Assembly: GCA_007694145.1 (NCBI GenBank)
Contig: RECF01000068.1
Span: 1 to 42,717 of the forward strand
Source: Acholeplasmatales bacterium
GTDB taxonomy: Bacteria > Bacillota_I > Bacilli_A > Izemoplasmatales > Izemoplasmataceae
Direction: 5' to 3'
Length of the DNA stretch: 42,717 nt
The notes below the pieces were generated by a model. It saw nothing but the letters and a program-made list of their open reading frames with translations. It was not told where the DNA came from and ran no database searches. The position numbers were made by a program, and so were the translations under genes. Position 1 is the stretch's first letter. Each line of letters starts with the position of its first letter. Below are positions 2,457 through 41,856 of the stretch, one piece after another.

Positions 2457-2532
2457 AGGGCCTCCTAATTGCGGTGCAAATCGGTTGTTTGAGATGGGAA
2501 GGTTGTCGTCACAATGGGCGATAAGGAAAGGA

Positions 2533-22107: not shown

Positions 22108-22689
22108 TTGATTGAAGGAATCGTTTTGGCAGCGGGCATGTCACAACGTGCTGGCAGCAACAAGCTACTTTGGATGGTTGAGGGTCGGACACTCATCGAG
22201 CATGCCTTACATGGCATGGCACCCCATGTAGAGCATATTTATGTGGTCACGGGACCCTATCACGCTGCGCTGACATCACAGCTCATCCATTGGAGCAATA
22301 TCACGCTGATCTACAATGACCAACATCTTCAGGGTATGTTCACATCGGTCAAGAAGGGTGTGGCTTTCAGTCATCCATGCAGTGACGTACTCATCTTGCC
22401 TGGAGATTGCCCCTTTGTAAAAGATACGACCTATCTAGCCATGGCAAAGCCGCATGAGACGATGGCGGTACCCCGCTATGATTCACGCCGTGGCCACCCG
22501 ATTTTTATCCCAAGTCGCCTCAAAGCGCCGTTACTTCTTGAACCGGATTCATCGCATTTGAAACATTTCCGTAATACCCATGGTTTCGTGGAAATCCCGA
22601 CCGACGATGCACACATCATCATTGATATAGATACCATCGAAGACTTCAATCAAAGTCTCGATGCGACACGAAAGGATGAGCGCCTTTGA
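22108..22689 (+). CDS. mocA: Molybdenum cofactor nucleotidyltransferase, MocA/YgfJ family
   Basis: A 193-residue nucleotidyltransferase that attaches CMP to molybdopterin to form the cytosine dinucleotide cofactor of xanthine-dehydrogenase-family enzymes. The N-terminal signature LAAGMSQRAGSNKLLW, LPGDCPFV near residue 96 (metal-binding Asp) and RRGHPIFIPS agree with MocA/YgfJ. The start is TTG at 22108, with GGGGTG about 7 nt upstream; there is no in-frame ATG near it. Its stop overlaps the next gene by 4 nt. As first gene of an operon with two molybdenum hydroxylases it probably supplies cofactor for both. Confidence 0.88.
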   Translation: MIEGIVLAAGMSQRAGSNKLLWMVEGRTLIEHALHGMAPHVEHIYVVTGPYHAALTSQLIHWSNITLIYNDQHLQGMFTSVKKGVAFSHPCSDVLILPGDCPFVKDTTYLAMAKPHETMAVPRYDSRRGHPIFIPSRLKAPLLLEPDSSHLKHFRNTHGFVEIPTDDAHIIIDIDTIEDFNQSLDATRKDERL

Positions 22690-23486
22690 TACACATTGAA
22701 CAGTATCACAAAGTAGATTCGTTAGAAGAAGCCTATCGCTTGCTTCAAAAATATGAGACCGCTGTTTTGCTTGGTGGTGGCGCCTGGATACGAACAGGAT
22801 CGAAACCGCTTGAACATGTCATCGATCTCAAGGGTCTTGGTTTGGATACCATCATCGAAACGAAAGATTCGCTGAGTATCGGGGCGATGGTATCGCTACG
22901 AGCAATGGAGACGCACGCCGGTATCCGTCAACTCGGTGGTGGTTTTTTGAGCGAAGCCTTGTCGCAAATTCTCGGCGTGGCCTTTCGAAATACGGCCACA
23001 GTCGGTGGGAGCATCATGGGGAAGTTTTCCTTTTCTGATTTGCTTACGCCGTTGCTGATGCTGGATGTGACCTTACAGTTTTACGATGCGGGACCGATGC
23101 GTTTGACGACGTTCTTGGCTCAGCGCGGACGCCTCAAAGACATTCTTCAAGCCATTACTATCGAAAAGAAAGCGTGTCGTGCGATGTTTAAGAAAGTCGC
23201 CAACACCGCTTTGGACTTTTCGATTGTCAATGTCGCGGTTGCCATAGTGGAAGGGCGTTACCGGATTGCTGTTGGGGCACGACCTGGCACGGCCATCTTG
23301 GCCGAGTCGGTCATGGCATGGCTTGACACGGTCGAATCGCCTACAGAAGCCACTTGGAAAGAAGCGGGCGAAAAAGTGGTTGAAACCATCAAACTGGGCA
23401 CGAACCAACGCGCCCATGAAAGCTACCGACAACAACTGGTCAAGACATATGTAGCACGTGGATTGAAAGAGGTGAGTGGTTCATGA
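22686..23486 (+). CDS. FAD-binding subunit of molybdenum hydroxylase 1
   Basis: A 266-residue subunit with the FAD-binding fold of the xanthine dehydrogenase family (YgfM/XdhB/CoxM type). The N-terminal VLLGGGAWIRTGSKPLEHVIDLKGL and central AFRNTATVGGSIMG (FAD pyrophosphate region; usually VRNxATxGG) are visible. It passes electrons from the 2Fe-2S subunit to NAD or another acceptor. The start is TTG at 22686 with AGGATGAG upstream. It is the first of three overlapping subunit genes ordered FAD, Fe-S, Mo. The C-terminal half is less conserved than in hydroxylase 2. Compared with E. coli it resembles the ygfM product more than XdhB. Confidence 0.88.
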   Translation: MIHIEQYHKVDSLEEAYRLLQKYETAVLLGGGAWIRTGSKPLEHVIDLKGLGLDTIIETKDSLSIGAMVSLRAMETHAGIRQLGGGFLSEALSQILGVAFRNTATVGGSIMGKFSFSDLLTPLLMLDVTLQFYDAGPMRLTTFLAQRGRLKDILQAITIEKKACRAMFKKVANTALDFSIVNVAVAIVEGRYRIAVGARPGTAILAESVMAWLDTVESPTEATWKEAGEKVVETIKLGTNQRAHESYRQQLVKTYVARGLKEVSGS

Positions 23487-23935
23487 AAATCAAATTTATG
23501 CTCAATGATCGGTCGCAAACTTGGCATACTGAACCTGGTGAATCCCTTCTTGATTTACTGAGACGACATCATGTGGTGAGTGTCAAAAAGGGTTGCGATG
23601 GCTCAACGTGCGGTGTCTGTACGGTTTTGATGAACCAAAAGCCGGTATTGGCTTGCACGGTTTTGGCCGTGCGGTGCGCGGGAGAACACATCCATACGGT
23701 TGAAGGATTGGCCGATGAAGTGGAAAAAATTAGTGAAGCCTTTGGCATTGAAGGGGCCGATCAGTGCGGTTTTTGTAATCCGGGCATCGCCCTGGCGCTT
23801 TATGCATTGAAAGCGGAACATCCTGAGGCTGATGCAGCGGAAATCAAGCAATATCTTGAAGGACACCTGTGCCGCTGTTCGGGTTATCAATCGCAAGTCA
23901 AGGCCGCCTTGCGTTATTTAGGGGAAGCATCATGA
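23483..23935 (+). CDS. 2Fe-2S subunit of molybdenum hydroxylase 1
   Basis: A 150-residue subunit carrying two 2Fe-2S clusters. The plant-ferredoxin-type N-terminal domain has GCDGSTCGVC and a later Cys (PVLAC). The helical C-terminal domain has QCGFCNPGI and CRCSGYQSQ, the usual CGxC and CRC motifs. It transfers electrons from the molybdenum site to FAD. The ATG overlaps the FAD-subunit stop by 4 nt and its stop overlaps the Mo-subunit start by 4 nt, indicating balanced translation of a three-subunit complex. Confidence 0.95.
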   Translation: MKIKFMLNDRSQTWHTEPGESLLDLLRRHHVVSVKKGCDGSTCGVCTVLMNQKPVLACTVLAVRCAGEHIHTVEGLADEVEKISEAFGIEGADQCGFCNPGIALALYALKAEHPEADAAEIKQYLEGHLCRCSGYQSQVKAALRYLGEAS

Positions 23936-26253
23936 AAGTTGTGAATCAATATGTGCCATCTGTCGATGGCAAAGGCATTATGCTTGGACGTCCCGCCTAT
24001 ACCGATGATCTTGCCGCACCGGATGCGTTGATTGTCAAGGTATTGCGCAGTCCGCATGCATTTGCGAAAATTGTCGCGATTGACACCCAAGCGGCCGAAG
24101 CCCTTGAAGGTGTCGAACTGGTTTTGACGCACAAGAACGTCCCACGCAAAGCGTTTACCCGTGCGGGTCAAGGATACCCGGAGCCTTCACCCCATGATAA
24201 GTTTGTTTTGGATACATATGTCCGCTATGTTGGCGATGAAGTCGCGGCGGTTGCGGCCATCGATGAAAAAACGGCACAAAAGGCATTGGGTTTGATTGTC
24301 GTTCAGTATGAAGTGCTCGAGCCGGTCCTCGATTTTGAATCGGCCATTGATCACGCCAGCATCATCCACCCTGAAGAAGGCATTCGTGAAATGTTTCCGA
24401 CGGGTTTTGAACCCAAGCGCAACATTGCAGCCGCGTATGACATGCATGTTGGCAATGTTGAAGCCTCTCTCGCATCATGCGATGTGGTCGTCCGTGAAAC
24501 ATTCCATACACAGGCTCAAGCCCATGCCATGATGGAGCCTCATACAGTCAACGCCCGTATGGACTACCAAGACAGGCTGTTGATGTACTCATCGACCCAA
24601 ACACCCTTTCATGTGCGGCGGATTTTGTCTCAGGCGCTTGATGTGCCAATCAGTCGCATACGGGTTATCAAACCACGGGTTGGCGGTGGTTTTGGTGGCA
24701 AACAGGCACTGCATGGCGAAATGTTGGTCGCCTTGACAACGCTCAGGACACGCAAACCTGCGAAGATGGTCTTTACCCGTCAGGAAGTATTTGAGTCATC
24801 GTATTCTCGGCATCCCATGCGCATTGATATCGCACTTGGCGCGATGAAAGACGGAACACTCAAAGCCATTGACTGCCGGATCCTTTCCGATACCGGAGCG
24901 TATGGTGAGCATGCCTTGACAGTGTTTATGGTGGCAGGTTCAAAAGTCCTGCCGCTATATAACAAAGTCGATGCGGTTCGTTTCGGAGGCCAAGTCGTCT
25001 ACACCAACAAGACACCTGCCGGTGCTTATCGCGGTTATGGCGCGATTCAGGGAAATTTTGCCTTGGAGTCCGCTGTCGATATGTTATGTGAACGTCTTGA
25101 AATCGATCCGATTGTGTTCAGACGGAAAAATATGATTGCCGAAGGCGAGTCAAGCCCGATTTTCGAAATAATGGGTGAAGGGACAGAAGGTACAGCGATG
25201 TCCATGGAAACTTGTAAACTCGATACGTGTGTCTCGCGAGGGTTGACGCTGATTGATTGGCATAAGAAATATCCCCGGCAAACATTGCCAGACGGACGAA
25301 TCAAGTCTGTCGGGATGGCCATCGCCATGCAAGGCAGCGGTATCCCTTACATTGACATGGGAGCCGCCACCATCAAACTGAATGACGACGGTTTCTACAA
25401 CTTGATGGTGGGTGCAACAGATATCGGTCAAGGTAGCGATACCATCCTGACACAAATCGCCGCCGAGGTCCTCATGACAACCGTCGATCGTGTCATTGTC
25501 TATTCCTCGGATTCTGATTTGACACCATTTGATGCAGGCGCTTACGCATCCAGCACGACGTATGTTTCGGGAAATGCCGTGCTTGCGGCAGCGGAGAAGA
25601 TGAAGGGCATGTTACTTGATGAGGCAGCTCGGGCCTTAGGTTGTGATCGTGAATTAGTACGCTTTGACGGTGCGACCTTTACCGCTGACTCGGGCGAAAA
25701 CATCTCCTTGTCTAAACTGTCTAACCGGCTATATTACAACGAAGATCAGCAACAGCTGACCGCAACGGCCAGTTATGTTGGCACCAAGTCACCCCCGCCC
25801 TTCATGGCCGGCCTCATTGAGATTGATCTCGATCCTGAAACCGGTGAAATCGACATTGTCGACTATGTCAGCGTCGTGGATTGTGGGACGGCTATCAACC
25901 CAAAACTGGCCATTGGTCAAATTGAGGGTGGTATCGTACAAGGTTTGGGGATGGCCCATTTTGAAGCAGTTAAGTATACAGCACAAGGACGCTTGATTTC
26001 AAATGACTTTCTATCGTACAAAATACCAACGCAACGATCTGTCAAAAATCTTCAGACGGAAATCGTTCACAGTTATGAACCAAGCGGGCCCTTTGGCGCG
26101 AAGTCGGTCGGTGAAATAGGAATTGACACCCCACCCGCTGCGCTAGCGAATGCAGTGTATAACGCCACAGGCGTACGCATCACCTCATTGCCAATCACGG
26201 CAGAAAAAATCATGGCGGGCATCGCCGCCAAAAAAGGAGAGCAATCACTATGA
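23932..26253 (+). CDS. Molybdenum-binding subunit of molybdenum hydroxylase 1 (XdhD-like)
   Basis: A 773-residue catalytic subunit of the xanthine dehydrogenase superfamily, hydroxylating an aromatic N-heterocycle with water as oxygen source. Visible: N-terminal hammerhead domain (MLGRPAYTDDL), the cofactor loop RVGGGFGGKQ, GAYRGYGAIQ with Arg367, GATDIGQGSDTI, and GPFGAKSVGEIGI with the catalytic Glu728. The residue after FGGK is Gln258, where xanthine dehydrogenases have a purine-contacting Glu, so the substrate may differ from hypoxanthine or xanthine. In E. coli the corresponding XdhD is fused to its Fe-S domain; here it is separate. ATG 23932 overlaps the previous stop; the longer frame from 23869 lies inside the Fe-S gene. 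Confidence 0.92.
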   Translation: MKVVNQYVPSVDGKGIMLGRPAYTDDLAAPDALIVKVLRSPHAFAKIVAIDTQAAEALEGVELVLTHKNVPRKAFTRAGQGYPEPSPHDKFVLDTYVRYVGDEVAAVAAIDEKTAQKALGLIVVQYEVLEPVLDFESAIDHASIIHPEEGIREMFPTGFEPKRNIAAAYDMHVGNVEASLASCDVVVRETFHTQAQAHAMMEPHTVNARMDYQDRLLMYSSTQTPFHVRRILSQALDVPISRIRVIKPRVGGGFGGKQALHGEMLVALTTLRTRKPAKMVFTRQEVFESSYSRHPMRIDIALGAMKDGTLKAIDCRILSDTGAYGEHALTVFMVAGSKVLPLYNKVDAVRFGGQVVYTNKTPAGAYRGYGAIQGNFALESAVDMLCERLEIDPIVFRRKNMIAEGESSPIFEIMGEGTEGTAMSMETCKLDTCVSRGLTLIDWHKKYPRQTLPDGRIKSVGMAIAMQGSGIPYIDMGAATIKLNDDGFYNLMVGATDIGQGSDTILTQIAAEVLMTTVDRVIVYSSDSDLTPFDAGAYASSTTYVSGNAVLAAAEKMKGMLLDEAARALGCDRELVRFDGATFTADSGENISLSKLSNRLYYNEDQQQLTATASYVGTKSPPPFMAGLIEIDLDPETGEIDIVDYVSVVDCGTAINPKLAIGQIEGGIVQGLGMAHFEAVKYTAQGRLISNDFLSYKIPTQRSVKNLQTEIVHSYEPSGPFGAKSVGEIGIDTPPAALANAVYNATGVRITSLPITAEKIMAGIAAKKGEQSL

Positions 26254-26876: not shown

Positions 26877-26900
26877 GTTTGCACCCGAAAGGAAACCACT

Positions 26901-27737: not shown

Positions 27738-28215
27738 TCAAAATAGCGGGAAGACCACAGCCTTGCTCAAACACTTTAAGCAACATGGACACGGCGACGG
27801 ATTTGTGGCCATCAAACACTTTTTTGGTGCGCAAATCACTGGTTTTTCTGCGCAGCGGCTCAGCAACGGTGAAACACAACGCCTTGCCGTCCATGATACG
27901 GTTGGTGAAGTCGACTTTGACATAGGGTGTCGAATGGGACCGTATGCATTCAGTCGTTCAACCTTGCGTTGGATCGATGAGGTGGTGGCACTGCTGGTCG
28001 CAAAGCGAGTACAACCCATTTATCTTGATGAGATAGGCAAACTCGAGCTCAACGGAGAAGGCTTGGACAAAGCTTTGCGTATTGTCTTATCAAGCGGACT
28101 TGATGCCGTGATAAGTGTTCGAACCGATTTGCTTTCAACCGTTGTCAAGCACTACAATCTGAAAGACTACTTACACGAATCTGTGGACATAGAGAGGGGA
28201 TTGAAACATGTATGA
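27715..28215 (+). CDS. THEP1-like P-loop nucleoside-triphosphatase
   Basis: A 166-residue NTPase. The start at 27715 overlaps the XdhC gene by 23 nt and directly opens the P-loop TGSQNSGKTTALL. GFVAIKHFFGAQITGF matches the THEP1 GFVTxE-type strand, and YLDEIGKLEL near residue 105 is the Walker B motif of this family (usually VDEIGxMEL). VISVRTDLLSTVV near the C-terminus also fits. The family hydrolyses NTPs in vitro with no defined role. It shows some resemblance to the MobB-type GTPases that help cofactor synthesis, which would suit its place next to xdhC. The larger open frame from 27649 lies within xdhC and is not used. Confidence 0.85.
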   Translation: MLTIVTGSQNSGKTTALLKHFKQHGHGDGFVAIKHFFGAQITGFSAQRLSNGETQRLAVHDTVGEVDFDIGCRMGPYAFSRSTLRWIDEVVALLVAKRVQPIYLDEIGKLELNGEGLDKALRIVLSSGLDAVISVRTDLLSTVVKHYNLKDYLHESVDIERGLKHV

Positions 28216-29512
28216 TTTGGCGATTATGAACGGGAACGTTTATACACCCGAGGGCTGGAAAAAGACGAACATCTATGTCAAAGAAGGTCGGATTGCCAAG
28301 CTTGACATAGAAAAATATGAAGCGGATGACTATGTTGATGCAACCGATTTAGAAGTCTTACCGGGTATCATCGACCCCCATGTCCATTTCGAACTAGCAG
28401 TCGGCAATCATCGTTCAGTGGATGATTTTCACACGGGAAGTATTTCAGCTGCATACGGTGGGGTGACCAGTTTTATTGACTTTCTCGACCCTGTCAGTCA
28501 TCACAGTGATTTGGAGAAAGCTTATGAGAAACGACTTGCACTGGCGCAAAAAAGCGTTGTCGATTATATGTTTCATGCGACACTTGCCAATCCGCAAGGG
28601 GATTTGGAAGCTTTTGTCAAAAATATGAAGCAACTGGGTATTGATACGCTCAAAGTGTTCACCACCTACTCTGAAACCGAACGTCGTACTTCCGATGAGG
28701 CCATCTTAACGTTGTTGTCGTTGACGAAAATATACGATTTCATGTTGCTGGTCCATGTTGAAAATGATGATTTGATCCATCACGATGCCACGTTTACCCA
28801 CGCGGATTTATCTAAAAGTCGTCCAAGTATCAGTGAAACCATTGAAGCCCTCAAACTTGCGGAGTTTACCCGTCGGACCGGGGGTTCTATGTATATGGTT
28901 CATCTCAGTAGCGGACGGACACTTGAAGCACTAAAAAACTACTATCCCAAACTGATCAACACACAGTTTTTCATTGAGAGCTGTCCGCAATATTTCACCT
29001 TCAACCATGATCGATTGCAAGACGATCTAGGCCATCTATTTACCATGGCCCCACCATTGCGAAGCGAAAGTGAGCGGTTATTATTGCATCGTCTTGTCAA
29101 TGAGGTGTATACAATCGGGACCGATCATTGCAGCTTCATGGCAACACAAAAAGCGGTACCGACCCTTGCGGAGTTGCCGCTTGGGGTGGCGGGTGTAGAA
29201 CATGCCCTGCCTGTGATGCGCGCCCATTTTGGTGACGGAGTGCTTGACAAGATGACCCGGCATGTTGCTGAAGTGCACCGCTTACGTCGTAAAGGCCAGC
29301 TACATGAAGGCTACGATGCGGACATCATCATTGTCGATCCGTCATTTGAAGAACCTGTCTCTGATCATCATGGTGCGACGGATCATACTATCTATAAGGA
29401 TGTTCCGCAAAAAGGCAAAGTGATTTCTACGATGGTACGAGGGCGTTTCGTCATGCGCCGTCGTCAGTTTCTCGGCACGCACGGAAGTTTGATTAAAGGG
29501 AGGCGATCTTGA
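28208..29512 (+). CDS. hyuA: Dihydropyrimidinase/hydantoinase-family cyclic amide hydrolase
   Basis: A 434-residue amidohydrolase (YgeZ/HyuA type) that opens cyclic amides such as hydantoins or dihydropyrimidines, here probably a ring intermediate from urate or xanthine. Metal ligands are visible: GIIDPHVHF (His58, His60), the likely carboxylated Lys149 (IDTLKVFTTYS), LLVHVENDDL, MVHLSSGRTLEAL and the Asp in IGTDHCSF. Length matches the family (430-480). The ATG at 28208 follows GAGGGG and overlaps the NTPase gene. It stands next to ssnA as in the E. coli yge/ygf cluster. Confidence 0.92.
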   Translation: MYDLAIMNGNVYTPEGWKKTNIYVKEGRIAKLDIEKYEADDYVDATDLEVLPGIIDPHVHFELAVGNHRSVDDFHTGSISAAYGGVTSFIDFLDPVSHHSDLEKAYEKRLALAQKSVVDYMFHATLANPQGDLEAFVKNMKQLGIDTLKVFTTYSETERRTSDEAILTLLSLTKIYDFMLLVHVENDDLIHHDATFTHADLSKSRPSISETIEALKLAEFTRRTGGSMYMVHLSSGRTLEALKNYYPKLINTQFFIESCPQYFTFNHDRLQDDLGHLFTMAPPLRSESERLLLHRLVNEVYTIGTDHCSFMATQKAVPTLAELPLGVAGVEHALPVMRAHFGDGVLDKMTRHVAEVHRLRRKGQLHEGYDADIIIVDPSFEEPVSDHHGATDHTIYKDVPQKGKVISTMVRGRFVMRRRQFLGTHGSLIKGRRS

Positions 29513-30813
29513 TGCCGATTGCAATCACCGATGTCACCCTCTATGATTTCGAACAGTTCATTGAAGACGGGTACATCGTGTTTGATGAGACCATCCTCGA
29601 AGTGGGAAGGATGGCAGACTTCAAGGCAGGTGACAACACATGTATTGACGGTCGCGGCCACTGGGTCATGCCAGGATTGGTGTGTGGGCATACACACATC
29701 TATGCTACATTCGCTCGGGGTCTCGCTTTGCCATTTAATCCCGTTGACTTTCAGGACATTCTCGATCAACTTTGGTGGAAAGTTGATCGCCACCTAACAT
29801 TGGAGAGTATTTACCAAAGCGGTTTAGTCAGCGGAATGGACTTTTTGAAGAATGGCATTACCACCGTCATCGACCACCATGCAAGCGGCGAGGTTAAAGG
29901 GGCATTGAAACAGCTTCAAAGGGCGCTGACCGAAACACTACCCATGCGCGCGGTTTTGGCTTTTGAGACCAGTGATCGGTTTGATGTCGCCTCAGCGATT
30001 GCGGAAAACACCCAGGCCATCGAGCAACAAGTCCCAACAAAAATGGCGGCGCTTTTTGGTCTGCATGCGTCCATGAGTCTCTCTGAATCGACTTTAAAAG
30101 CCGTTAAGGCTGTCTTAGGCGACCACCCTATTCATATCCATGTTGCGGAAAGTTCGCTGGATCAGCAACAGGCCTTGCACCATTATGGTGAGCGTGTCGT
30201 CGAGCGCCTTGACCGTCATGGTCTACTCAATCCCGGCAGCATTCTTACCCACGCCATTCATGTCGATGACCATGAACTCAAACGCATTCAGGAACGCGGA
30301 TGTGTCATTGCCGTCAATGTGTCTTCAAATATGAACAACAGTGTCGGTTTGCCAGACATCCCGGCGTTTTTGAATCTGGACATACCAGTTATTCTTGGCA
30401 ACGATGGTCTTTCTTTTGGCATGGCGCATGAGTACTTGAACCTTGTCTATGCCATGCATCACAAGAAAAATTCACCCACGTCCCTTGATCTTGGCGATCT
30501 TCAACGAATGATTCGACAAACGTACACCTATGCATCTGAACGGCTTGGCATCGAACTGGGTGTTTTACGTCAAGATGCAGCGGCTGATTTGCTCATGATT
30601 CCCTACACTGCCCCGACGCCACTCGATGAAACGAACGCTTTTGGGCATCTGTTTTATGGTCTCTTTAACGCGTTCAAACCCAAGCATGTTTTCACATCTG
30701 GAAAACAGGTTGTTCGTGATTATGATTTGAGTGACGCCCATCAGAAACTGTATGCTGAAGCCAAACATGAGGCAGAAAAACTATGGAATCGGATAAGAGA
30801 GGAGGCAGAGTGA
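29512..30813 (+). CDS. ssnA: SsnA-type aminohydrolase
   Basis: A 433-residue metal-dependent amidohydrolase related to guanine/chlorohydrolase-type deaminases and to SsnA, found with selenium- or purine-linked molybdenum hydroxylases. Metal-site motifs: MPGLVCGHTHIYATFARG, PIHIHVAESSLD, THAIHVDDHE and ILGNDGLSFG. It probably opens or deaminates a reduced purine. GGGAGG lies 8 nt before the ATG at 29512, which shares one base with the hyuA stop. The TTG one codon earlier is less likely. Its stop shares one base with the DHOD-like gene, so all three are tightly coupled. Confidence 0.9.
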   Translation: MPIAITDVTLYDFEQFIEDGYIVFDETILEVGRMADFKAGDNTCIDGRGHWVMPGLVCGHTHIYATFARGLALPFNPVDFQDILDQLWWKVDRHLTLESIYQSGLVSGMDFLKNGITTVIDHHASGEVKGALKQLQRALTETLPMRAVLAFETSDRFDVASAIAENTQAIEQQVPTKMAALFGLHASMSLSESTLKAVKAVLGDHPIHIHVAESSLDQQQALHHYGERVVERLDRHGLLNPGSILTHAIHVDDHELKRIQERGCVIAVNVSSNMNNSVGLPDIPAFLNLDIPVILGNDGLSFGMAHEYLNLVYAMHHKKNSPTSLDLGDLQRMIRQTYTYASERLGIELGVLRQDAAADLLMIPYTAPTPLDETNAFGHLFYGLFNAFKPKHVFTSGKQVVRDYDLSDAHQKLYAEAKHEAEKLWNRIREEAE

Positions 30814-31892
30814 TGTCACAACTGAAGACGATGTTTGACCAACTTGTACTCGCCAATCCGCTCATGCCAGCATCCGGCCCACTAGTCGGTGATGACAAGA
30901 AGATGCAGTTTTTGCAAGATGCTGGTTGTGGTGCGATTGTCACGAAAACCATCTCCACGCAGTCACCAAAAATTCCCAAACCTTGCATCTATGGCGATAA
31001 GCAGTATGTCATGAACAGTGAACTTTGGAGCGAGCACGACTTGGATTGCTGGATCCATGATTTTTTACCCAACTATCAAAAAACCAACGATCGACCGCTG
31101 ATTATCAGTGCCGGTTATACAAAGGAAGATATGGAGATACTCATCCCGGCGCTTGATCCATTTGCCGATGCCTTTGAGATTTCCACGCACTATGTCGGGA
31201 CCGACCTCAAGGTCATTGCCGAAACGGTCACCACCATTCGCCGCCATACGACGAAGCCGGTATACATGAAAATCAGTCCGCACATCCCCGACCCGGGGGC
31301 CTTTGCCAAAACGATTAAGGCCGCGGGTGCAAACGGTATTGTTGCCATCAACTCTCTTGGTCCTACTTTGCACATCGATCTCAAGGACCGGGCCATACGC
31401 TATGGCAATGACAGCGGTTTTGTCTGGATGAGCGGACCGGCCATCAAACCCGTGGCACTTGCTACGGTACGAACGTTGCGACAAGCTGAACCGGATCTGA
31501 CCATCATCGGTGTCGGTGGCATTGCGACGGCTGAAGATGTGCTTGAGTTTATACTCGCTGGCGCTGATGCTGTGCAAATGCTATCGGCTGCTTTGATTAA
31601 GGGGAAAGACTTGTACGCGAAGATTCTTCGTGATCTGCCTGATGCACTCAAACGCTATGGCTTTGACAGCATTGAGTCTGTTAGGAAGACGACACTTAAA
31701 AACGACGTGGTCTATCAGGCTTCCGTGCCGGTACTCATTGAAGAAAAATGTATCGAATGCATGTTGTGTGAGAAAGTGTGTCCGTATTTTGCCATCACCT
31801 TCAAAGATAAGATAACTTTTGATGAATCGGTGTGCTTCCGTTGTGGTTTGTGTGTCAGTAAATGCCCAACACAGGCCATTGTCATGCATTGA
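30813..31892 (+). CDS. Dihydroorotate-dehydrogenase-like flavoprotein with ferredoxin domain
   Basis: A 359-residue fusion resembling PreA, the catalytic subunit of bacterial dihydropyrimidine dehydrogenase. Residues 1-305 form the FMN barrel (GPAIKPVALATVRTL and the phosphate loop IIGVGGIATAEDVLEFILAG). C-terminal cysteines 313/316/319/323 and 341/344/347/351 make two 4Fe-4S clusters. The usual N-x-S-C-P segment is replaced by FEISTHYVG (residues 121-129), so the substrate is probably not dihydroorotate or uracil. Its place after ssnA suggests ring reduction of a purine, a step assigned to YgfK in the E. coli-type cluster. A PreT-like NAD(P)H subunit is not encoded in the window. GGAGG precedes ATG 30813. 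Confidence 0.88.
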   Translation: MSQLKTMFDQLVLANPLMPASGPLVGDDKKMQFLQDAGCGAIVTKTISTQSPKIPKPCIYGDKQYVMNSELWSEHDLDCWIHDFLPNYQKTNDRPLIISAGYTKEDMEILIPALDPFADAFEISTHYVGTDLKVIAETVTTIRRHTTKPVYMKISPHIPDPGAFAKTIKAAGANGIVAINSLGPTLHIDLKDRAIRYGNDSGFVWMSGPAIKPVALATVRTLRQAEPDLTIIGVGGIATAEDVLEFILAGADAVQMLSAALIKGKDLYAKILRDLPDALKRYGFDSIESVRKTTLKNDVVYQASVPVLIEEKCIECMLCEKVCPYFAITFKDKITFDESVCFRCGLCVSKCPTQAIVMH

Positions 31893-31902
31893 GGAGGTTT
31901 TT

Positions 31903-34002
31903 ATGAAAGATATTAGTCGTTCCGTTCCCAAAGAAGATCACGAGGAGAAAGTATCGGGTCGCGCATTGTACGTTAGCGACATTCAGATGGCGGACATGCA
32001 TTACGCGAAGACGGTACGTGCCGATCGACCGCACGCACGCATCCGTAATATCCGGCTTCCCGAACTGCCCGAAGGCTATGTCGTTGTCGATCACCATGAC
32101 ATACCGGGTGCGAATCATGTCAACATGATTTTTGAAGATTGGCCTGTTTTTGCGGATTCGGTGGTACGACACGTGGGTGAGCCCATCATGCTTGTGTGTG
32201 GCAAGGATAAACAGATTATTCAATCAATTTGCGATGAAATAGTCATCGAGTATGAAGATCTCGAACCTGTTTTTGATTTGCAAGAAAGTGTCGTGCACAA
32301 ATCTTTTCAAAAAGGCGATGCCGCGGCCGCTTTTGCCCGGGCTGACCAAGTGGTTGAACGTGTCTATGAAACAGGCTATCAGGAACAAGCCTACATAGAG
32401 CCTCAAGGATTTGTCGGGTATCTTGAAGGGGAAAAGAAAGTCACGTTGATTGGTTCTATTCAATGTCCTTATTATGTCAAGAACGCCGTCATCAAGACTT
32501 TGGCGTGCGACCCAGAAGACGTACGTGTCATTCAGGCTGCCGTAGGCGGGGCATTTGGTGGCAAGGAAGAGTTTCCATCTTTGATCGGTTGTCAGTTGGC
32601 CGTTGCGGTTCATAAACTGAAAAAACCAATCAAAATCATCTATGAGCGTGAAGAAGACATGATTGTCACGACCAAGCGTCATCCTTCTAAAACAACCATG
32701 CAAGCCGCCCTTGACAGTGCGGGTCGCGTGCTCGCCATCAAAGCCCATGTGGCTCTTGATGCCGGTGCTTACATTGGTCTTAGTGGGGTCGTGCTCTCAC
32801 GGGCTATGCTTGCGGTGACCTCCGCCTATACCATCGACCACCTTGATGTCAAAGGAGACGTGTATCTGACCCATACCGTACCCAACGGTGCCTTCCGTGG
32901 TTTTGGTGCCCCACAGATGATCTTCGCCATCGACATGTTCATGCATCATCTGGCCAAGCATCTTGGTAAGGACCCCTATCAGTTCCGTAAAGCACACCAA
33001 GCAAAACAAGGTGATCGAACTGCCACAAGTGGCATCTTTCGCGATCCGATTCTCATGGATGCCATGGTTGAAAAGGCAACCAGTATGTCCGACTACCATC
33101 GCAAGCAAAAAGACTACGCTTCGCCTGATGTGTACCGGGGGATTGGCATGAGTTGGTTTTTGCATGGGTGTGGCTTCACAGGTAGCGGTGAGAGTGATCA
33201 TATCAAGGCCAAGGTGCGTCTACGCAAGAGTGATACGGACCACGTGTATGTGCTTGTCGCAGCCGTAGACATGGGACAGGGGGCTAAGACAACGCTGAAG
33301 AAAGTGGTGGTTGAAACGCTTGGTGTTCCTTATAATCAAGTTACTTTCGATGATCCAGACACGGATGCGGTACCCGATTCGGGTCCAACCGTGGCCAGTC
33401 GCACGGCGATGATCGTCGGAGGTTTGCTTGCACAAGCCGCCCAAACCCTCAAAGAAACATGGAAAAGAGGCGAAACACAAGTGGTTGAAAAAACGTATCG
33501 CCAACCGGAGTTTGTTATTTGGGATGAGAAAACATTACGTGGCGACGCGTACCCTGCCTACTCATGGGGGGTCAATATTGTCGAGGTGAGCGTATCACCT
33601 GTCACTTATGAAGTCAAGGTAGAAAAAATTTGGAGTGTTTATGACGTCGGTAAGGCACTTGACGAACGGATTGTTCTCGGGCAGGCCGATGGTGGTATCG
33701 CTCAAGGTGTCGCCTATGGGTATCTTGAAGTTATGCGCCATCATGGTGGACACATTCAGCACAAGAACATGACCGATTACATCATTCCAACAGCGGTTGA
33801 TATGGCTCCGACTGAAACCGTCATCTTTGACAATCCCTATGCGCTTGGCCCCTATGGTGCTAAGGGCGTAGGTGAGTTGTCACTTGTTGGAGGCGCACCG
33901 GCCGTAGCGATGGCGATTGAACAGGCTATAGGCCGTCCGATTCAAAAAATCCCCGCTACCCCGGAAATGATTATGGAGTTGATGCGTGATGAAACCCATT
34001 AA
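31903..34002 (+). CDS. xdhA: Molybdenum-binding subunit of molybdenum hydroxylase 2 (xanthine dehydrogenase type)
   Basis: A 699-residue catalytic subunit that should oxidise hypoxanthine and xanthine. It has VSGRALYVSDI, the loop VGGAFGGKEEF with Glu222 at the purine-binding position of xanthine dehydrogenases, GAFRGFGAPQ with Arg332, VDMGQGAKTTL and GPYGAKGVGELSL with catalytic Glu658. Both purine-contact residues known from bovine enzyme (Glu802, Arg880, from memory) are therefore kept, unlike in hydroxylase 1. GAGGAGG precedes ATG 31903; the longer frame from 31819 runs inside the previous gene. Subunit order here is Mo, Fe-S, FAD, the reverse of hydroxylase 1. Confidence 0.94.
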   Translation: MKDISRSVPKEDHEEKVSGRALYVSDIQMADMHYAKTVRADRPHARIRNIRLPELPEGYVVVDHHDIPGANHVNMIFEDWPVFADSVVRHVGEPIMLVCGKDKQIIQSICDEIVIEYEDLEPVFDLQESVVHKSFQKGDAAAAFARADQVVERVYETGYQEQAYIEPQGFVGYLEGEKKVTLIGSIQCPYYVKNAVIKTLACDPEDVRVIQAAVGGAFGGKEEFPSLIGCQLAVAVHKLKKPIKIIYEREEDMIVTTKRHPSKTTMQAALDSAGRVLAIKAHVALDAGAYIGLSGVVLSRAMLAVTSAYTIDHLDVKGDVYLTHTVPNGAFRGFGAPQMIFAIDMFMHHLAKHLGKDPYQFRKAHQAKQGDRTATSGIFRDPILMDAMVEKATSMSDYHRKQKDYASPDVYRGIGMSWFLHGCGFTGSGESDHIKAKVRLRKSDTDHVYVLVAAVDMGQGAKTTLKKVVVETLGVPYNQVTFDDPDTDAVPDSGPTVASRTAMIVGGLLAQAAQTLKETWKRGETQVVEKTYRQPEFVIWDEKTLRGDAYPAYSWGVNIVEVSVSPVTYEVKVEKIWSVYDVGKALDERIVLGQADGGIAQGVAYGYLEVMRHHGGHIQHKNMTDYIIPTAVDMAPTETVIFDNPYALGPYGAKGVGELSLVGGAPAVAMAIEQAIGRPIQKIPATPEMIMELMRDETH

Positions 34003-34462
34003 ATTTATCTTGAATGACCAACCGGTTGAAGCCCATACCAATCCATCAAGACGATTGCTCGATGTATTGCGCGGCGACTATGGTCTCACGGGTTCAAAAG
34101 AAGGCTGTGGCGAGGGTGAGTGCGGGGCATGCTCCGTCTTGCTGGACGGGTATGCGGTAAACAGCTGTATTTTGCCCCTTGCAAGCGTAGAAGGCCGTCA
34201 CGTCACCACCATCGAAGGGTACGCAAAAACCCAACGTTTTGCTGTGGTTAAAGCGGCGATGGGGGATGAAGGTGGGTCACAGTGTGGCATTTGTACACCG
34301 GGTTTCATGATTGCGATTGAGAGCTTGCTGAAGAAGAACCCTAAGCCGTCTGAACAAGAAATCAGAACCGGCCTAGCGGGAAATCTTTGTCGCTGTACCG
34401 GTTACAACATGATTGTCAAAGCGGTTCAAAAGGCTGCGAAGGTAGGTGAGGGGCTGTGGTAA
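33989..34462 (+). CDS. 2Fe-2S subunit of molybdenum hydroxylase 2
   Basis: A 157-residue subunit with two 2Fe-2S clusters. N-terminal motif GCGEGECGACSVLLDG with a later Cys (NSC), C-terminal QCGICTPGF and CRCTGYNMI. It is closer to the xanthine dehydrogenase consensus than the first Fe-S subunit. ATG 33989 overlaps the end of the Mo subunit by 14 nt, with GGAG 10 nt upstream; a GTG directly before it is a possible alternative. The stop overlaps the FAD-subunit start. Confidence 0.95.
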   Translation: MKPIKFILNDQPVEAHTNPSRRLLDVLRGDYGLTGSKEGCGEGECGACSVLLDGYAVNSCILPLASVEGRHVTTIEGYAKTQRFAVVKAAMGDEGGSQCGICTPGFMIAIESLLKKNPKPSEQEIRTGLAGNLCRCTGYNMIVKAVQKAAKVGEGLW

Positions 34463-35307
34463 GACATGTGATTCCAAGTTCATATCGTGAGGCGCTCGTT
34501 CATTTGCGTGACGGCAGTTTCCATATTGTGGCCGGTGGGACGGATATCATGTTGAAATATCGCAATGCTGCCGATTTGCCACCTCGTTTTGAACGGGATG
34601 TGCTCTATGTGCTCAATCTCGATGAACTGAAGTATATCCACGTTGAAGAGGGTGTCTGGCGCATCGGTGCCCTGACCGCCTATGAAACGTTGCTTGACCA
34701 TCCGGAAATACCGGATGTGTTTAAATCGGCCTGGATCGATATCGGTGGACCGGGACTGCGCCATGTCGCTACATTGGCCGGCAACATCGCCAATGCATCT
34801 CCAGCAGCGGATGGCATTATGCCGTTATACCTTTATGATGCCCAAGTCGTGCTTGAAAGTTGTGCTGGATCCCGGACGTTGCCAATTGATGCGGTCATAA
34901 CCGGACCTAAACAGACTGCAATCGGTCCGCAGGAAATGATTCGCGAAATCATTGTGCCCAAACACGACTTTGACGTGGCTACTTGGGTCAAAGTCGGCAC
35001 CCGAAAAGCCGACGCCATCTCGAAAGTGTCTTTCTGCGGTGCCATCAAGGTCGAGTCAGGTGTGATCAAAGATCTCCGCTTGACACTGGGTTCGGTCGCG
35101 CCGACCGTCATACGGGCAAGAGATCTTGAGGCCACGGTCAAAGGCATTACGCTTACTGCGCTTGAAGCGCGCCTCGATGCCTTGCTTGATGCTTATGCTG
35201 CACGCATTCGTCCCATTGACGACCAACGCTCAACCAAACACTACCGTCAACAAGTTGCCCGTAACTTGATTGAAGATTTTCTCAAACAACAAATTCGTAA
35301 AGGATGA
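34456..35307 (+). CDS. xdhB: FAD-binding subunit of molybdenum hydroxylase 2
   Basis: A 283-residue FAD subunit. FAD-binding segments: FHIVAGGTDIMLKYRN near residue 18 and LRHVATLAGNIANASPAAD near residue 98, as in XdhB. The C-terminal domain has the typical LRLTLGSVAPTVIRA. It transfers electrons to NAD or another carrier. The start is GTG at 34456 inside the last codons of the Fe-S gene; the AGGTGAGG site is close (about 4 nt), so the exact start is slightly uncertain. The gene completes a three-subunit xanthine dehydrogenase directly ahead of adenine deaminase. Confidence 0.92.
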   Translation: MVRHVIPSSYREALVHLRDGSFHIVAGGTDIMLKYRNAADLPPRFERDVLYVLNLDELKYIHVEEGVWRIGALTAYETLLDHPEIPDVFKSAWIDIGGPGLRHVATLAGNIANASPAADGIMPLYLYDAQVVLESCAGSRTLPIDAVITGPKQTAIGPQEMIREIIVPKHDFDVATWVKVGTRKADAISKVSFCGAIKVESGVIKDLRLTLGSVAPTVIRARDLEATVKGITLTALEARLDALLDAYAARIRPIDDQRSTKHYRQQVARNLIEDFLKQQIRKG

Positions 35308-35312
35308 TGCCC

Positions 35313-37040
35313 ATGGACCCAAAACATGCCATGAACATAGCCCGTGGTCTAAAAAACGCCAGCCGTGTTTTGAAAAATGCCAAGATTGTCAATGTCTACA
35401 CCGGCGAGATTGAAAAAGGTGACATTGCCATGGAAGATGGCGTGATTGTCGGTGTGGGCGCATACAAGGGTGTCGAAGAAATTGATGTAAACGGGCGCTA
35501 TGTCGCCCCCGGTTTCATCGACGGTCATGTCCACATTGAATCCTCGATGCTCACCCCGCCAGCATTCGCTAGTCTCGTTGTACCTAAAGGGACGACGACC
35601 ATCATCGCAGACCCACATGAAATCGCCAACATCAGTGGTATTGATGGCATACGATTCATGGTTGAAAGCAGTCGCGGTTTACCTCTTGAAGTGCATGTGA
35701 TGATACCTTCCTGTGTCCCGGCTACGGCCCATGAAAACAACGGAGCGACCATCGATGTCAGTGATATCGAAGCACTGAAGCATACCGAAGGCATATTAGG
35801 ACTTGGCGAAGTGATGGATTACCCTGCAGTCTTAGAGGGCCAAAAAAGCGTCCATCAAAAAATCGCCGCTATGCGCGGTTGCATCATTGACGGTCATGCC
35901 CCAGATATTGTGGGCAAAGATTTGAATGCTTATGTTTTAGCCGGGGTGATGACCGATCATGAGTGTACGGTTATCGATGCCATGCTCGACCGTATACGGC
36001 GGGGCATGTATGTTCATCTGCGCGAAGGATCGGCAACCCGGAACGTGGCCACTTTAATTCAAGGTGTGACAAAAGACAATCTGCATCGCACGCTCTTTTG
36101 CACCGATGACAAACATCCTGAAGATATTCTCAAGGAAGGTCATATCAACTACAACATTAACTTGGCCATTAAACACGGTTTAGCGCCTGTAGATGCCATA
36201 CGCATGGCTACACTCCATGCGGCGCAATGCTATCGCCTTGATCATCTTGGGGCCATCGCCCCTGGAAAACAAGCTGATTTGGTTGTTTTTGATGACTTAT
36301 ACAATATTCAGCCGATCGATGTCTATAAACGTGGTGTTTTGGTTGCAAGTCAGGGAAAGGCGCTTTTTAAAGCGGATACAGTCAAACATACGGCTGTGAC
36401 ACAAACTGTCAACATCAAGAAAGACACTGTGAACTTCGCGTTGAAACTTCAATCCGAACAGGTTCACGTGATTGGCTTGATTCCGCAAAACATTACCACC
36501 GAGAAACATGTGCGCACCGTTAAGGTTGAATCCGGCGCATTCAGCTATGACCCAGATCGCGATATCATGAAACTTGCCGTGATCGAACGCCACCGAGCCA
36601 CCGGCAACATGGCACTTGGGCTTGTTGAAGGGTTTGGCTTCAAAGGGGGTGCGCTGGCTATGACCATCGCCCATGACTCGCATAATATCATCGTTGTCGG
36701 AAGTGATGATGCATCTATGCATGCAGCTGTCGAAAGAATTGTTGAGATTCAAGGGGGTATTGTACTAGTTGAGAACGGGTTAGTGATCGATCAATTGCAG
36801 CTTGAAATCGGTGGCATCATGACCAATCAAGCGGTCGAAACAGTTCAAGGTGCTTTGAAGCGCATGCACAATACGTTGATGCGCATGGGTCTGGCCAAGT
36901 CAGTGGATGACCCGTTCATCTCATTGTCCTTTTTGGCGTTACCCGTCATACCCAAGCTCAAATTGACAGATATTGGCTTATTCGATGTGGAGCAATTTGC
37001 ACACGTCTCCATTGAGGTGGCATCAAACAATGGCGATTAA
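35313..37040 (+). CDS. ade: Adenine deaminase
   Basis: A 575-residue metal-dependent hydrolase converting adenine to hypoxanthine and ammonia. Signature segments: APGFIDGHVHIESSMLTP (metal-binding His pair), ADPHEIANISG, DGHAPDIVGKDLNAYVLAG, TDHECT, LREGSATRN and CTDDKHPEDI, then the C-terminal domain with ITTEKHVRTVKVESG and AMTIAHDSHNIIVVG. Length and order match AdeC/YerA. Three ATGs occur close together (35304, 35307, 35313); the last has AAAGGA about 8 nt upstream. The product feeds xanthine dehydrogenase encoded just upstream. The final 11 nt overlap the next gene. Confidence 0.96.
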   Translation: MDPKHAMNIARGLKNASRVLKNAKIVNVYTGEIEKGDIAMEDGVIVGVGAYKGVEEIDVNGRYVAPGFIDGHVHIESSMLTPPAFASLVVPKGTTTIIADPHEIANISGIDGIRFMVESSRGLPLEVHVMIPSCVPATAHENNGATIDVSDIEALKHTEGILGLGEVMDYPAVLEGQKSVHQKIAAMRGCIIDGHAPDIVGKDLNAYVLAGVMTDHECTVIDAMLDRIRRGMYVHLREGSATRNVATLIQGVTKDNLHRTLFCTDDKHPEDILKEGHINYNINLAIKHGLAPVDAIRMATLHAAQCYRLDHLGAIAPGKQADLVVFDDLYNIQPIDVYKRGVLVASQGKALFKADTVKHTAVTQTVNIKKDTVNFALKLQSEQVHVIGLIPQNITTEKHVRTVKVESGAFSYDPDRDIMKLAVIERHRATGNMALGLVEGFGFKGGALAMTIAHDSHNIIVVGSDDASMHAAVERIVEIQGGIVLVENGLVIDQLQLEIGGIMTNQAVETVQGALKRMHNTLMRMGLAKSVDDPFISLSFLALPVIPKLKLTDIGLFDVEQFAHVSIEVASNNGD

Positions 37041-38283: not shown

Positions 38284-38288
38284 CAATT

Positions 38289-39653
38289 ATGGCAAACGTA
38301 CCATATGGACCGACGTATGACGAAATGCTCCACCCCGATACCATCGAAAAAGATCTGCGTGAGCAAGCACTTAAAGCGCGGAAAAATGAACGTGATCCAT
38401 TGAACTTGTTTAACATTACTTGGAAGAATGAAACAGGTGAGGTCAGGAAAATCGTCTTACCCAAAGCGTTGACAGGTGTCGATGCGAATATTGTCGTGTT
38501 GCTTGGCAAAGACTTTCCCTCCGGCTCTCACAAAGTCGGACCGGCATACGCCACGTTGATTGAAGGTTGCGTCGATGGGACACTGATTCCTGGCGAACGC
38601 ACGATATTAGGCCCTTCTACGGGTAACTTCGGTATCGGTGTCTCCTATATTTGCCACCTCATGGGCTATGACGCGATTGTTATCATGCCTGACAACATGA
38701 GTCGCGAACGTTACGAGCGAATCAAACGCTATGGGGCAAAACTTGATTTGACCCCAGGCACGGAATCGGACGTTATCTTGACACTCGAGCGTACCCATGA
38801 ACTGATGAAAGATCCGCGCAATTTTGCCTTGGCGCAATTTGAACTCTTTCCCAACTATCGTTTTCATCGACATGTCACGGGTGGCAGTGCGGTCGAAGCG
38901 GTACAAGGTATTGGCAATAGTCGCATCGCCTGTTTTGTCTCTGCGCCGGGAAGCGCTGGGACCATGGCTGCAGCCGATCACATTCGCACCGTGTTCCCGG
39001 AACTCAAAACCGTCGCCTTAGAGCCTTATGAGTGCTCGACATTGACAGATGGGGGTCGAGGCCAACACCGAATTGAAGGTATCGGTGACAAAATGTGCAC
39101 CTTGATTCATAATGTCTTGACCACGGATTACATTACACTAATCAAAGATGAAGATTCGGTTCGTGCATTGAAGGTCATTCAGGATGGGGCCGCCGTGATG
39201 AAAAAACACGGGGTTCATGAAGATGAAATCAAAGCGATGGCCGACTTGTTTGGCGTTTCTGGACTTTGCAACATCATCGGCGCGATCAAAATGGCCAAAT
39301 ATTTGCGTTTGGGTGAACAGGAAAACGTGGTCACCGTTGCAACCGACGGCTTCGATCGTTACGACAGTGTCCTTGATGACTTGGAGCAACGCGAGCTTGA
39401 ACTTGAAGAACACGTGTTATCACGCTGGTTCAAGGATATATTTTTAGAAGCAGACACCCGTCATGTCAAGGATGTCCGCGGGTGTTCTGAAAAAGAATCT
39501 CTCTTTGCGCAAAAAGAGCGCGACTGGTTGAAATTTGGGTATGAAAAAACCCTGCTTGATGCCATGAAAGATCAGTCTTTTTGGGAAGCAGAATACGATA
39601 AAGTCGCCCATTACAACCAGAAAATCAAAGACAAGCGAGGGACGAAACTGTGA
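38289..39653 (+). CDS. Fold-type-II PLP enzyme, cysteine-synthase/diaminopropionate-lyase-like
   Basis: A 454-residue PLP enzyme. [12 protein letters not shown] contains the Schiff-base Lys82; [14 protein letters not shown] is the substrate-carboxylate loop; [15 protein letters not shown] binds the cofactor phosphate. The N-terminal ~65 residues and C-terminal ~100 residues (Glu/Lys-rich helices) extend the core. It is not YgeX-like: the YgeX FGLNAFKMLGG pattern is absent. AAGGAG lies 8 nt before ATG 38289, and it follows the threonine-synthase-like gene by 5 nt. Likely role: eliminating ammonia or a carbamoyl/ureido group from an amino-acid intermediate of purine breakdown. The specific reaction is unknown. 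Confidence 0.85.
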
Positions 39654-40876
39654 AAATACCATTTGAAACGATTCTCGAAAAAGCCGGTCAGTACGAGAAG
39701 GCTATGACAAAGTTTTTAAGAGACATGATTCGCATTCCGAGTGAATCTTGCGATGAGGCGCGTGTGATTGAGCGTATCAAACAAGAGATGGAGGCTGTCG
39801 GTTTCGACCGCATTGACATCGACCCGATGGGTAACATTCTTGGCACGATTGGTCATGGCAAACACTTGATTGCCATGGATGCGCACATCGACACCGTCGG
39901 GATTGGCGATCGCAGTCAATGGCATCATGATCCTTACGAAGGATTCGAGGATGATGACATTATCGTTGGCAGAGGGTCAAGCGACCAAGAAGGTGGCATG
40001 GCGGCGATGGTCTATGCGGGGAAAATCATCAAAGATCTCGGACTCGAAGATGATTATACACTCCTTATAACAGGCACTGTGCAGGAAGAAGACTGTGACG
40101 GATTGTGTTGGCAGTATTTGATTGAGCAGCAGGGCATCCGCCCCGAGTTTGTGGTCATCACCGAACCGACCGCGTGTCGGATTTATCGCGGCCATCGTGG
40201 CCGCATGGAAATCAAAGTGACCACCCAAGGTGTGAGCTGTCATGGCAGCGCACCTGAGCGTGGCGACAACGCTATTTTCAAGATGGCCCCCATCCTTTTA
40301 GAAGTACAGGCACTGAACGATAAGCTGAAAGATGATCCGTTTCTAGGTAAAGGCACGATGACAGTCAGTGAAATATTCTTTAGTTCTCCCTCACGCTGTG
40401 CTGTAGCGGATGGCTGCTCGATCTCCATTGATCGTCGACTGACCCATGGTGAAACCTACGAGATGGCGCTTGAGGAAATTCGTGCTTTACCAGCCGTGCA
40501 AACAGCCGAAGCGACTGTTGAGATGTATACATATGAGCGACCCGCTTACACGGGTCTTGTGTATCCGACCCAATCCTATTTCCCAACTTGGGTGCTTGAT
40601 GCAGATCACCCCGCGTGTGAGACAGCTGTCGAAACATACCGGCACTTGTTTGCTAAAGAACCCGTGGTCGACAAATGGACATTTTCGACCAATGGTGTCT
40701 CCATTATGGGACGACATGGCATTCCGTGTATAGGGTTTGGGCCCGGTCGCGAAGAAGAAGCGCATGCACCCAATGAAAAAACGTTCAAAAAAGATCTCAT
40801 CGAAGCATGCGCCATGTATGCGGCCATGCCAATGGTGTATCTGAAACATAAGAAGAAAGAGAGTGAATCTGCATGA
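39650..40876 (+). CDS. ygeY: YgeY-type M20 family metallohydrolase
   Basis: A 408-residue M20 peptidase/deacylase with the two-zinc core: [11 protein letters not shown] (metal-bridging Asp context), [18 protein letters not shown] and the catalytic Glu pair [11 protein letters not shown]. The dimerisation domain with [12 protein letters not shown] and the C-terminal [15 protein letters not shown] complete the fold. It follows the YgeY pattern linked to purine/selenium-associated clusters, which hydrolyses an amide or carbamoyl bond of unknown substrate. The start is GTG at 39650, overlapping the previous stop; GAGGGA lies upstream. The stop overlaps the carbamoyltransferase start by 4 nt. Confidence 0.92.
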
Positions 40877-41856
40877 AGCCTCGTTACAAAGGAAAGCATT
40901 TCATTACCCTTGAGGAGTGGACTAAAGAAGAGATCGATGACCTACTTCAAGTTTCGGCTGAACTCAAGGCGAAGTTTTACAGTAACGTCCCGACGCCTTA
41001 CCTTACCAACAAGACATCTTTTCTCATGTTTTTCGAGCAATCGACCCGCACCCGCAACTCCATGGAAGCCGGTATCGCTCAACTCGGTGGACACGGCACA
41101 TTCCTCGACACCTCGACGATGCAAATATCGCATGGTGAAAGCGCCAAAGATACGGCCGTCATCCTGTCAAGCTACGGTCATGGCATTGCTTGCCGTAACT
41201 GCTTTTGGGGTGTCGGCAACCGGTACTTGCGTGAGATGGCGGAGTATGCGACAGTACCTGTGATGAACTTACAGTGTGACTTGTATCACCCGATGCAAGG
41301 CCTTGCTGACCTGATGACCATTCAAGAAGTCAAAAAGAAAACGAAGAACCTCAAGGTCTCCGTCATCTGGGCCTATGCAAAAAGCCATAAAAAACCCGTC
41401 AGCGTACCCGTCACCCAAGTGCTGTTGTTTCCACGTTATGGCATGGATGTGACACTCGCGTATCCGGAAGGGTATGATTTACCGGATTGGGTCATTGATA
41501 AAGCGCGAAAAAACGCGGCTGAAAATGGTGGTTCACTGACCATTACACACTCGATGGAAGAAGCCTATCGCAATGCAGATATCGTCATACCGAAAAACTG
41601 GGGCAGCTGGGTCCGCAACCAATCAGAAATCGTCATTGATGATTTACTCGAGTCAAATCGCGGTTGGAAGTGCACTGAAGCTTTAATGAAGTTGGCCAAG
41701 TCTGACGTCAGCTACATGCATGCCCTTCCTGCAGACCGCGAAAATGAAGTGGAAAATGCTGTCATCGACGGTCCGCATTCGATTGTCTATCAGGAAGCTG
41801 AAAATCGCTTGCATACTGCAAAAGCGGTCATGGCGATGACGATGGGTGACAAGTAA
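40873..41856 (+). CDS. ygeW: YgeW-type knotted carbamoyltransferase
   Basis: A 327-residue aspartate/ornithine-carbamoyltransferase-family enzyme. [15 protein letters not shown] is the carbamoyl phosphate loop (STRTR), [13 protein letters not shown] the second, and [17 protein letters not shown] matches the YgeW-specific WAY...KPxSVP segment. It is shorter than E. coli YgeW (about 396 residues, from memory), and the usual HCLP loop reads HALPADR. It probably runs in the catabolic direction, producing carbamoyl phosphate from a ureido compound for ATP formation; a carbamate kinase gene is not in the window. It is the last gene of the operon. Confidence 0.9.

Follow-up and report, generated by a model that had tools for sequence, protein, structure and literature searches.

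A probable ferredoxin-driven UacX at the yanthine step of an 18-gene purine operon in Izemoplasmatales

Introduction

What reaction is carried out by a flavoprotein that has the domain layout of PreA, an altered catalytic segment and no NAD(P)H-oxidizing partner encoded nearby? The question is raised by a gene at 30813..31892 (+ strand) in the window analysed here, the 42,717-nucleotide contig RECF01000068.1 of an Acholeplasmatales bacterium (GTDB order Izemoplasmatales; GenBank assembly GCA_007694145.1). An initial annotation, made from the sequence alone, took the product for a ferredoxin-linked reductase of a purine ring that does the work of YgfK with a new active site.

In the published reductive uric acid pathway XdhD forms yanthine (2,8-dioxopurine) by reducing urate, and YgfK dearomatizes yanthine, followed by SsnA, HyuA, YgeW or UacY, YgeY and YgeX (PMC12507026). 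UacX, named in C. difficile (Q181U4) by Li et al. 2025, stands in for YgfK and was proposed to dearomatize yanthine using ferredoxin (PMC12507026). The methods of that paper describe an assay of UacX with methyl viologen, but we found no activity result in its main text; the enzyme's biochemical proof may thus be thin. For PydAc, a related uracil enzyme, ferredoxin dependence has been shown (PMC7332683). We found no mention of the pathway genes in a study of purine use by C. difficile (PMC11448449).

We conclude, at a probability of roughly 0.83, that the window gene encodes the Izemoplasmatales UacX, an enzyme for ferredoxin-driven yanthine dearomatization that replaces the NAD(P)H-dependent YgfK in an 18-gene purine operon. 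By breaking the aromaticity of the purine ring it would very probably allow DNA-derived purines to be fermented.

Results

The uacX-type gene (359 aa) was assigned from Pfam and NCBIfam matches, sequence matches in the PDB, an AlphaFold2 model searched with Foldseek, and its clade with other SsnA-linked UacX proteins. Its ATG at 30813 overlaps the stop codon of ssnA as TGATG, which couples the two genes translationally, and is preceded by a GGAGG ribosome-binding site. By Pfam, residues 4-279 match DHO_dh (E 8.8e-36) and residues 307-355 hold Fer4 domains, where two CxxCxxCxxxC motifs running from C313 to C351 (31749..31865, +) supply eight cluster cysteines (313, 316, 319, 323, 341, 344, 347 and 351). 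The FMN barrel and two 4Fe-4S clusters read from the sequence beforehand were thus borne out. The protein has no FAD/NAD(P)H domain, and its layout, a DHOD-like FMN barrel that ends C-terminally in a 2x[4Fe-4S] ferredoxin domain, is that expected of UacX.

The closest solved sequences were class 1B DHODs, with porcine DPD further down the list. When the AlphaFold2 model (mean pLDDT 84.6) was searched with Foldseek, the best matches were DPD (E 4.7e-24) and DHODB (E 1.7e-23; 5ue9, TM 0.85 on target). Alignment with DHODB and DPD/PreA confirmed that the usual N-x-S-C-P segment is replaced by FEISTHYVG (residues 121-129; codons at 31173..31199, +). In the model, FEIS closes strand 120-124 and THYVGTD forms a short loop ahead of helix 132-143. 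Because dozens of genomes share the gene, at 59-86% identity, and the segment, the substitution is neither chance nor a sequencing error.

To place the protein among its relatives we built a maximum-likelihood tree of 60 proteins, 28 of them UacX. All 28 UacX fell on one side of a branch (support 98/94), with PreA (100/99) and PyrD (100/100) forming separate groups; in this tree, which the initial annotation had proposed, the window protein therefore clusters with neither family. The UacX clade joins it with homologues from clusters bearing UacY, SsnA, HyuA, YgeY and DpaL. Its own branch is long, and its identity to clostridial and fusobacterial UacX is 36-40%. Across 104 distinct UacX sequences E[ILV]S[TAC]HYVG was present in every one and NxSCP in none. 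As clade, gene sets and this segment agree, we file the window protein as a putative UacX, a classification that relates it to the C. difficile protein Q181U4 through gene content and clade.

Other identities were considered and rejected. The PreA/DPD model (PRK08318), whose cut-off is 335 bits, gave 129.7, the NxSCP loop with its general-acid cysteine is gone, and the clade is a different one. For class 1B PyrD the scores lay below the curated cut-offs, the catalytic cysteine is absent and the protein falls outside the PyrD clade. Membership of YgfK (TIGR03315) does not fit a 359-aa protein devoid of the GltD-like NAD(P)H domain, YgfK having ~1000 aa. A hidden PreT partner was sought as well. 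Neither YgfK nor PreT was found in the window, where tblastn with E. coli PreT gave a best E of 0.38, and the sole good match in the genome was an NfnB-type protein encoded beside an NfnA-type protein on another contig (both named from sequence and gene pairing, not from a family scan). The earlier statement that no PreT-like gene lies nearby consequently stands, and no partner preT was found elsewhere in the genome. Two further loci (L180 and L181) encode another clostridial DHOD-ferredoxin family of ~395 aa with the segment EANMVCPN, which branches away from both PreA and UacX.

The alignment showed that PreA, DPD and UacX have in common K45 (the lysine of the KT motif), N68-x-E70, K153 and N180, PyrD having N-[AS]-x-G-L-Q-N-P in place of N-x-E. 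The window UacX lacks the ELNxSCPN loop of PreA, DPD and PyrD and is ~9 residues shorter than PyrD at this point. In DPD this loop carries C671, an essential residue that protonates C5 (PMC8097209). Since the loop is deleted in UacX, the enzyme must use another proton donor. S124, H126, Y127 and C58 (of a P-x-P-C motif) were invariant in 40/40 aligned sequences; judged by this conservation, the Ser-Thr-His-Tyr segment (S124, H126, Y127) or C58 probably replaces the general-acid cysteine. As far as we found, the missing catalytic cysteine of UacX has not previously been described.

A profile of four YgfK N-terminal domains matched the UacX profile with a probability of 92% (E 6.7e-7), as against 1.3% for PreA (E 0.042) and 0.2% for PyrD (E 0.29), neither of which is a match. 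The motifs KPC, N-x-E-[LW], SVGY-type and ST(x)H occurred in 28/28 UacX and 4/4 YgfK. KPC, and the N-x-E signature in its UacX/YgfK form, were found in 0/15 PreA and 0/13 PyrD, and the looser SVGY-type and ST(x)H patterns were present in at most two proteins of either group. With both UacX and YgfK placed at the yanthine step, a purine pocket common to the two, suggested by this small YgfK sample (four domains), would be the simplest reading. The earlier idea of an active site peculiar to the window gene is rejected, because every UacX examined (104/104) bears the segment; it is a family-wide trait, partly common to YgfK.

The gene is the tenth of 18 tightly packed genes on the + strand (22108-41856) that overlap by a few bases at most junctions. 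The operon begins with a MobA/MocA-like nucleotidyltransferase for molybdenum cofactor (22108..22689) and a first molybdenum hydroxylase (22686..26253), whose FAD (22686-23486), 2Fe-2S (23483-23935) and Mo (23869-26253) subunits were identified by Pfam. Its Mo subunit, the best XdhD counterpart, shares 36% identity with E. coli XdhD, and by this resemblance the complex is likely to be the urate-to-yanthine enzyme. Next come a 208-aa open reading frame (26250-26876) that had no Pfam or NCBIfam match and recurs in 46/80 related operons (the nearest 80 loci), an XdhC maturation factor (26901-27737) and an NTPase_1 protein (27649-28215). The hyuA-type cyclic amidohydrolase (28208..29512; 434 aa) matched the D-hydantoinase family at 221 bits, under the cut-off, and is 28% identical to E. 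coli HyuA. The ssnA-type aminohydrolase (29509..30813; 434 aa) scored 332 bits with TIGR03314, under the cut-off of 455.5, and is 33% identical to Cetobacterium SsnA.

Downstream of uacX lies a second molybdenum hydroxylase (31900..35307; Mo 31900-34002, 2Fe-2S 33986-34462, FAD 34456-35307), which likely oxidizes hypoxanthine and/or xanthine. Its Mo subunit is short (~700 aa) and covers only part of MoCoBD_2; the KGVGE motif is seemingly kept. An adenine deaminase (35304..37040; TIGR01178, 622 bits, above cut-off) is followed, in the YgeX position, by two PLP-fold (PALP) enzymes, one threonine-synthase-like (36973-38283) and one cysteine-synthase-like (38280-39653), a pair that is conserved in dozens of loci. 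The operon ends with a ygeY hydrolase (39650..40876; TIGR03526, 712 bits, above cut-off; 73% identity to E. coli YgeY) and a YgeW/OTC-type carbamoyltransferase (40873..41856; 327 aa), which is 36% identical to E. coli YgeW and scored 186 bits with the YgeW model against a cut-off of 500. In contrast to the Cetobacterium and clostridial clusters, the window showed neither an NCS2-type purine permease nor a sigma-54-type regulator. Two tRNA-Ser genes were all that Rfam detected between 16000 and 42717.

Elsewhere in the window, 432-2549 (- strand) codes for a protein of 705 aa that combines Endonuclease I with InlB-type repeat domains; it is possibly a secreted nuclease, which would be consistent with degradation of extracellular DNA. 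A PfkB-type kinase gene followed by an Indigoidine_A-type gene (pseudouridine-5'-phosphate glycosidase family) occupies 14682-16498, and we take the two to be a probable pseudouridine catabolism pair.

We then surveyed the nearest 80 uacX loci, using named records of Izemoplasmatales, Acholeplasmatales, other Bacilli and Clostridia. The gene directly upstream of uacX was ssnA in 80/80, a hyuA-type gene was present in 74/80, and the second Mo subunit lay directly downstream in 76/76 of the loci that reach that far; none contained preT or ygfK. The suggestion that FEISTHY-type genes sit beside ssnA and hyuA was thus upheld for ssnA in all of these loci and for hyuA in most.

More distant loci resemble the published gene set. 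The annotated plasmid cluster of Cetobacterium somerae holds dpaL, ygeY, a D-aminoacylase (UacY), ssnA, hydA and xdh genes together with a 366-aa homologue that is 39% identical to the window UacX; in a plasmid tblastn it was the sole UacX among the matches listed, the rest being PreA-like at <30% identity. A clostridial locus (L156) carries dpaL, ygeY, uacY, ssnA, uacX, hyuA and xdhD, the last with 25.3% identity to E. coli XdhD; C. difficile XdhD has 25.63% (PMC12507026). The clostridial and Cetobacterium UacX all have E[LI]S[TA]HYVG. One genome (G742) has the gene set published for C. difficile. At one of its loci (L158, 9386-10420), amid SsnA-like, HyuA-like and molybdenum hydroxylase genes, it also encodes a UacX paralogue whose segment reads IELVSYDYRD, with no Cys, no STHY and no KPC; this is perhaps a reductase for another purine.

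The same 18 genes were found in the genomes of two cultured relatives, Hujiaoplasma nucleasis zrk29 and Xianfuyuplasma coldseepsis zrk13. In zrk29, DNA plus RNA induces a cluster (HF295_00920-01005) described as containing genes for XDH, Fe-S, NTPase, dihydropyrimidinase and adenine deaminase (PMC10470597); if the numbering runs in steps of five, this range amounts to 18 tags. In zrk13, a cluster upregulated with thiosulfate includes genes for threonine synthase, cysteine synthase, ornithine carbamoyltransferase and XDH (PMC8397711), and 'xanthine-degradation loci' have been drawn for Izemoplasmatales (PMC8289736). By gene content and approximate position, both clusters are apparently the 18-gene operon. 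In the accessible portions of these three papers we found no mention of a reductive urate or purine route or of UacX, and as far as we found the place of uacX in the DNA-induced operon has not previously been described.

Discussion

The function proposed at the outset, a ferredoxin-linked purine-ring reductase in the place of YgfK, agrees with these results, as does its ssnA/hyuA context; the enzyme had already been named UacX (PMC12507026). A purine ring also remains the expected substrate, in the form of yanthine instead of the urate or xanthine suggested earlier. Yanthine as substrate and reduced ferredoxin as electron donor are the most likely assignments on the model of the published pathway.

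In the mechanism we propose, electrons would pass from reduced ferredoxin through the two [4Fe-4S] clusters to FMN, which would reduce the pyrimidine half of yanthine by hydride transfer and so dearomatize it. The co-translated SsnA would hydrolyse the dihydro product and pull the reaction forward. Reduced ferredoxin should be available, because the genome encodes a pyruvate:ferredoxin oxidoreductase (1762 bits) and the NfnAB-like pair. With UacX standing in for YgfK, the operon would convert adenine, hypoxanthine or xanthine via urate and yanthine to diureidopropionate, diaminopropionate and carbamoyl phosphate; a carbamate kinase is encoded on another contig. Four electrons would be set free on the way from hypoxanthine to urate and four taken up between urate and dihydro-yanthine, a balance that the two molybdenum hydroxylase sets would fit. 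A search of the 92.6%-complete genome turned up no YgeX orthologue, the operon's two PLP-fold genes being the best matches at 23-24%. With this pair in the YgeX position, the last step may be non-orthologous.

A broader reading would combine these points. UacX and YgfK would share a distinct purine-reductase active site of the DHOD superfamily, in which Ser-Thr-His(-Tyr) and the KPC cysteine replace the Cys loop, and Izemoplasmatales would carry out a redox-balanced fermentation of DNA purines ended by PLP enzymes unrelated in detail to YgeX. We offer this combination tentatively, at somewhat less than even odds.

The same family could instead reduce another oxopurine, such as xanthine, 8-oxo-hypoxanthine or urate, with SsnA- and HyuA-type enzymes processing the product. 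The divergence of the window subfamily from clostridial UacX, the scores of its SsnA, HyuA and YgeW under the curated cut-offs and the presence of two molybdenum hydroxylases, which could supply different oxopurines, speak for such a substrate. However, the identities of the first Mo subunit to E. coli XdhD and of YgeY to its E. coli counterpart make the same intermediates as in the E. coli pathway likely, and the pocket motifs equal those of clostridial and fusobacterial UacX; we therefore consider another oxopurine unlikely.

Pyrimidine chemistry fits the locus less well still. As a ferredoxin-dependent dihydropyrimidine dehydrogenase of the PydAc/PreA type the protein would act on uracil or thymine, and the HyuA-type enzyme would be a dihydropyrimidinase. 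Such a role would accord with the PreA domain layout, the common N-x-E, lysine and asparagine pocket residues, the ferredoxin dependence of PydAc (PMC7332683) and DPD as the top Foldseek matches, but it is opposed by the separate clade and low PreA score, by the missing ECN/ELN-x-[SG]CP loop with its essential cysteine, and by a gene that always adjoins ssnA and XDH genes in the nearest 80 loci, and we judge it very improbable. A housekeeping dihydroorotate dehydrogenase of pyrimidine synthesis might be expected from the fact that the genome has no other full-length DHO_dh match. Yet the protein groups apart from PyrD and below its cut-offs, the catalytic cysteine and the NSxGLQNP segment are missing, four relatives (G008, G027, G029 and G032) each have both a UacX-type and a PyrD-type protein, and the genome has no pyrE above cut-off, which fits pyrimidine salvage; the odds of this identity are negligible.

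Identification of the window gene as UacX connects the newly described reductive urate pathway with a DNA-induced operon, so far unexplained, of sediment bacteria that lack a wall and feed on DNA, and it yields residue-level hypotheses on how yanthine reductases manage without the DPD cysteine. The cultured hosts H. nucleasis zrk29 and X. coldseepsis zrk13 make the UacX proposal testable. Two points keep it of interest, an active site without the cysteine that is partly shared with YgfK and an explanation for the DNA-induced operon, which is apparently the zrk29 cluster of PMC10470597, a report whose accessible text names neither a reductive purine pathway nor UacX.

Compared with known systems, class 1B PyrD is alike in the FMN barrel fold (5ue9), whereas it has no ferredoxin domain and has its own substrate loop, a catalytic cysteine and a PyrK partner. 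PydAc, PreA and porcine DPD resemble UacX in fold, ferredoxin domain, pocket lysine, N-x-E and asparagine; in contrast to UacX they keep NxSCP with the essential cysteine (C671 in DPD) and belong to another clade, and PreA is found together with PreT. YgfK (E. coli, TIGR03315) takes the same pathway step and has KPC, NxE, SVGY and ST(x)H in its FMN domain, but its ~1000 aa include a GltD-like NAD(P)H domain, and it keeps a cysteine in LST[ML]HGCP, where UacX has none. UacX of C. difficile has the same PF01180 barrel and ferredoxin domain, likewise lacks a FAD/NAD(P)H domain and takes the position of ygfK next to ssnA and hyuA, and ExSxHYVG is shared by close homologues whose clusters have the C. 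difficile gene set. The window operon differs from the C. difficile cluster in its YgeW-type transferase in place of UacY, its second molybdenum hydroxylase and its lack of YgeX.
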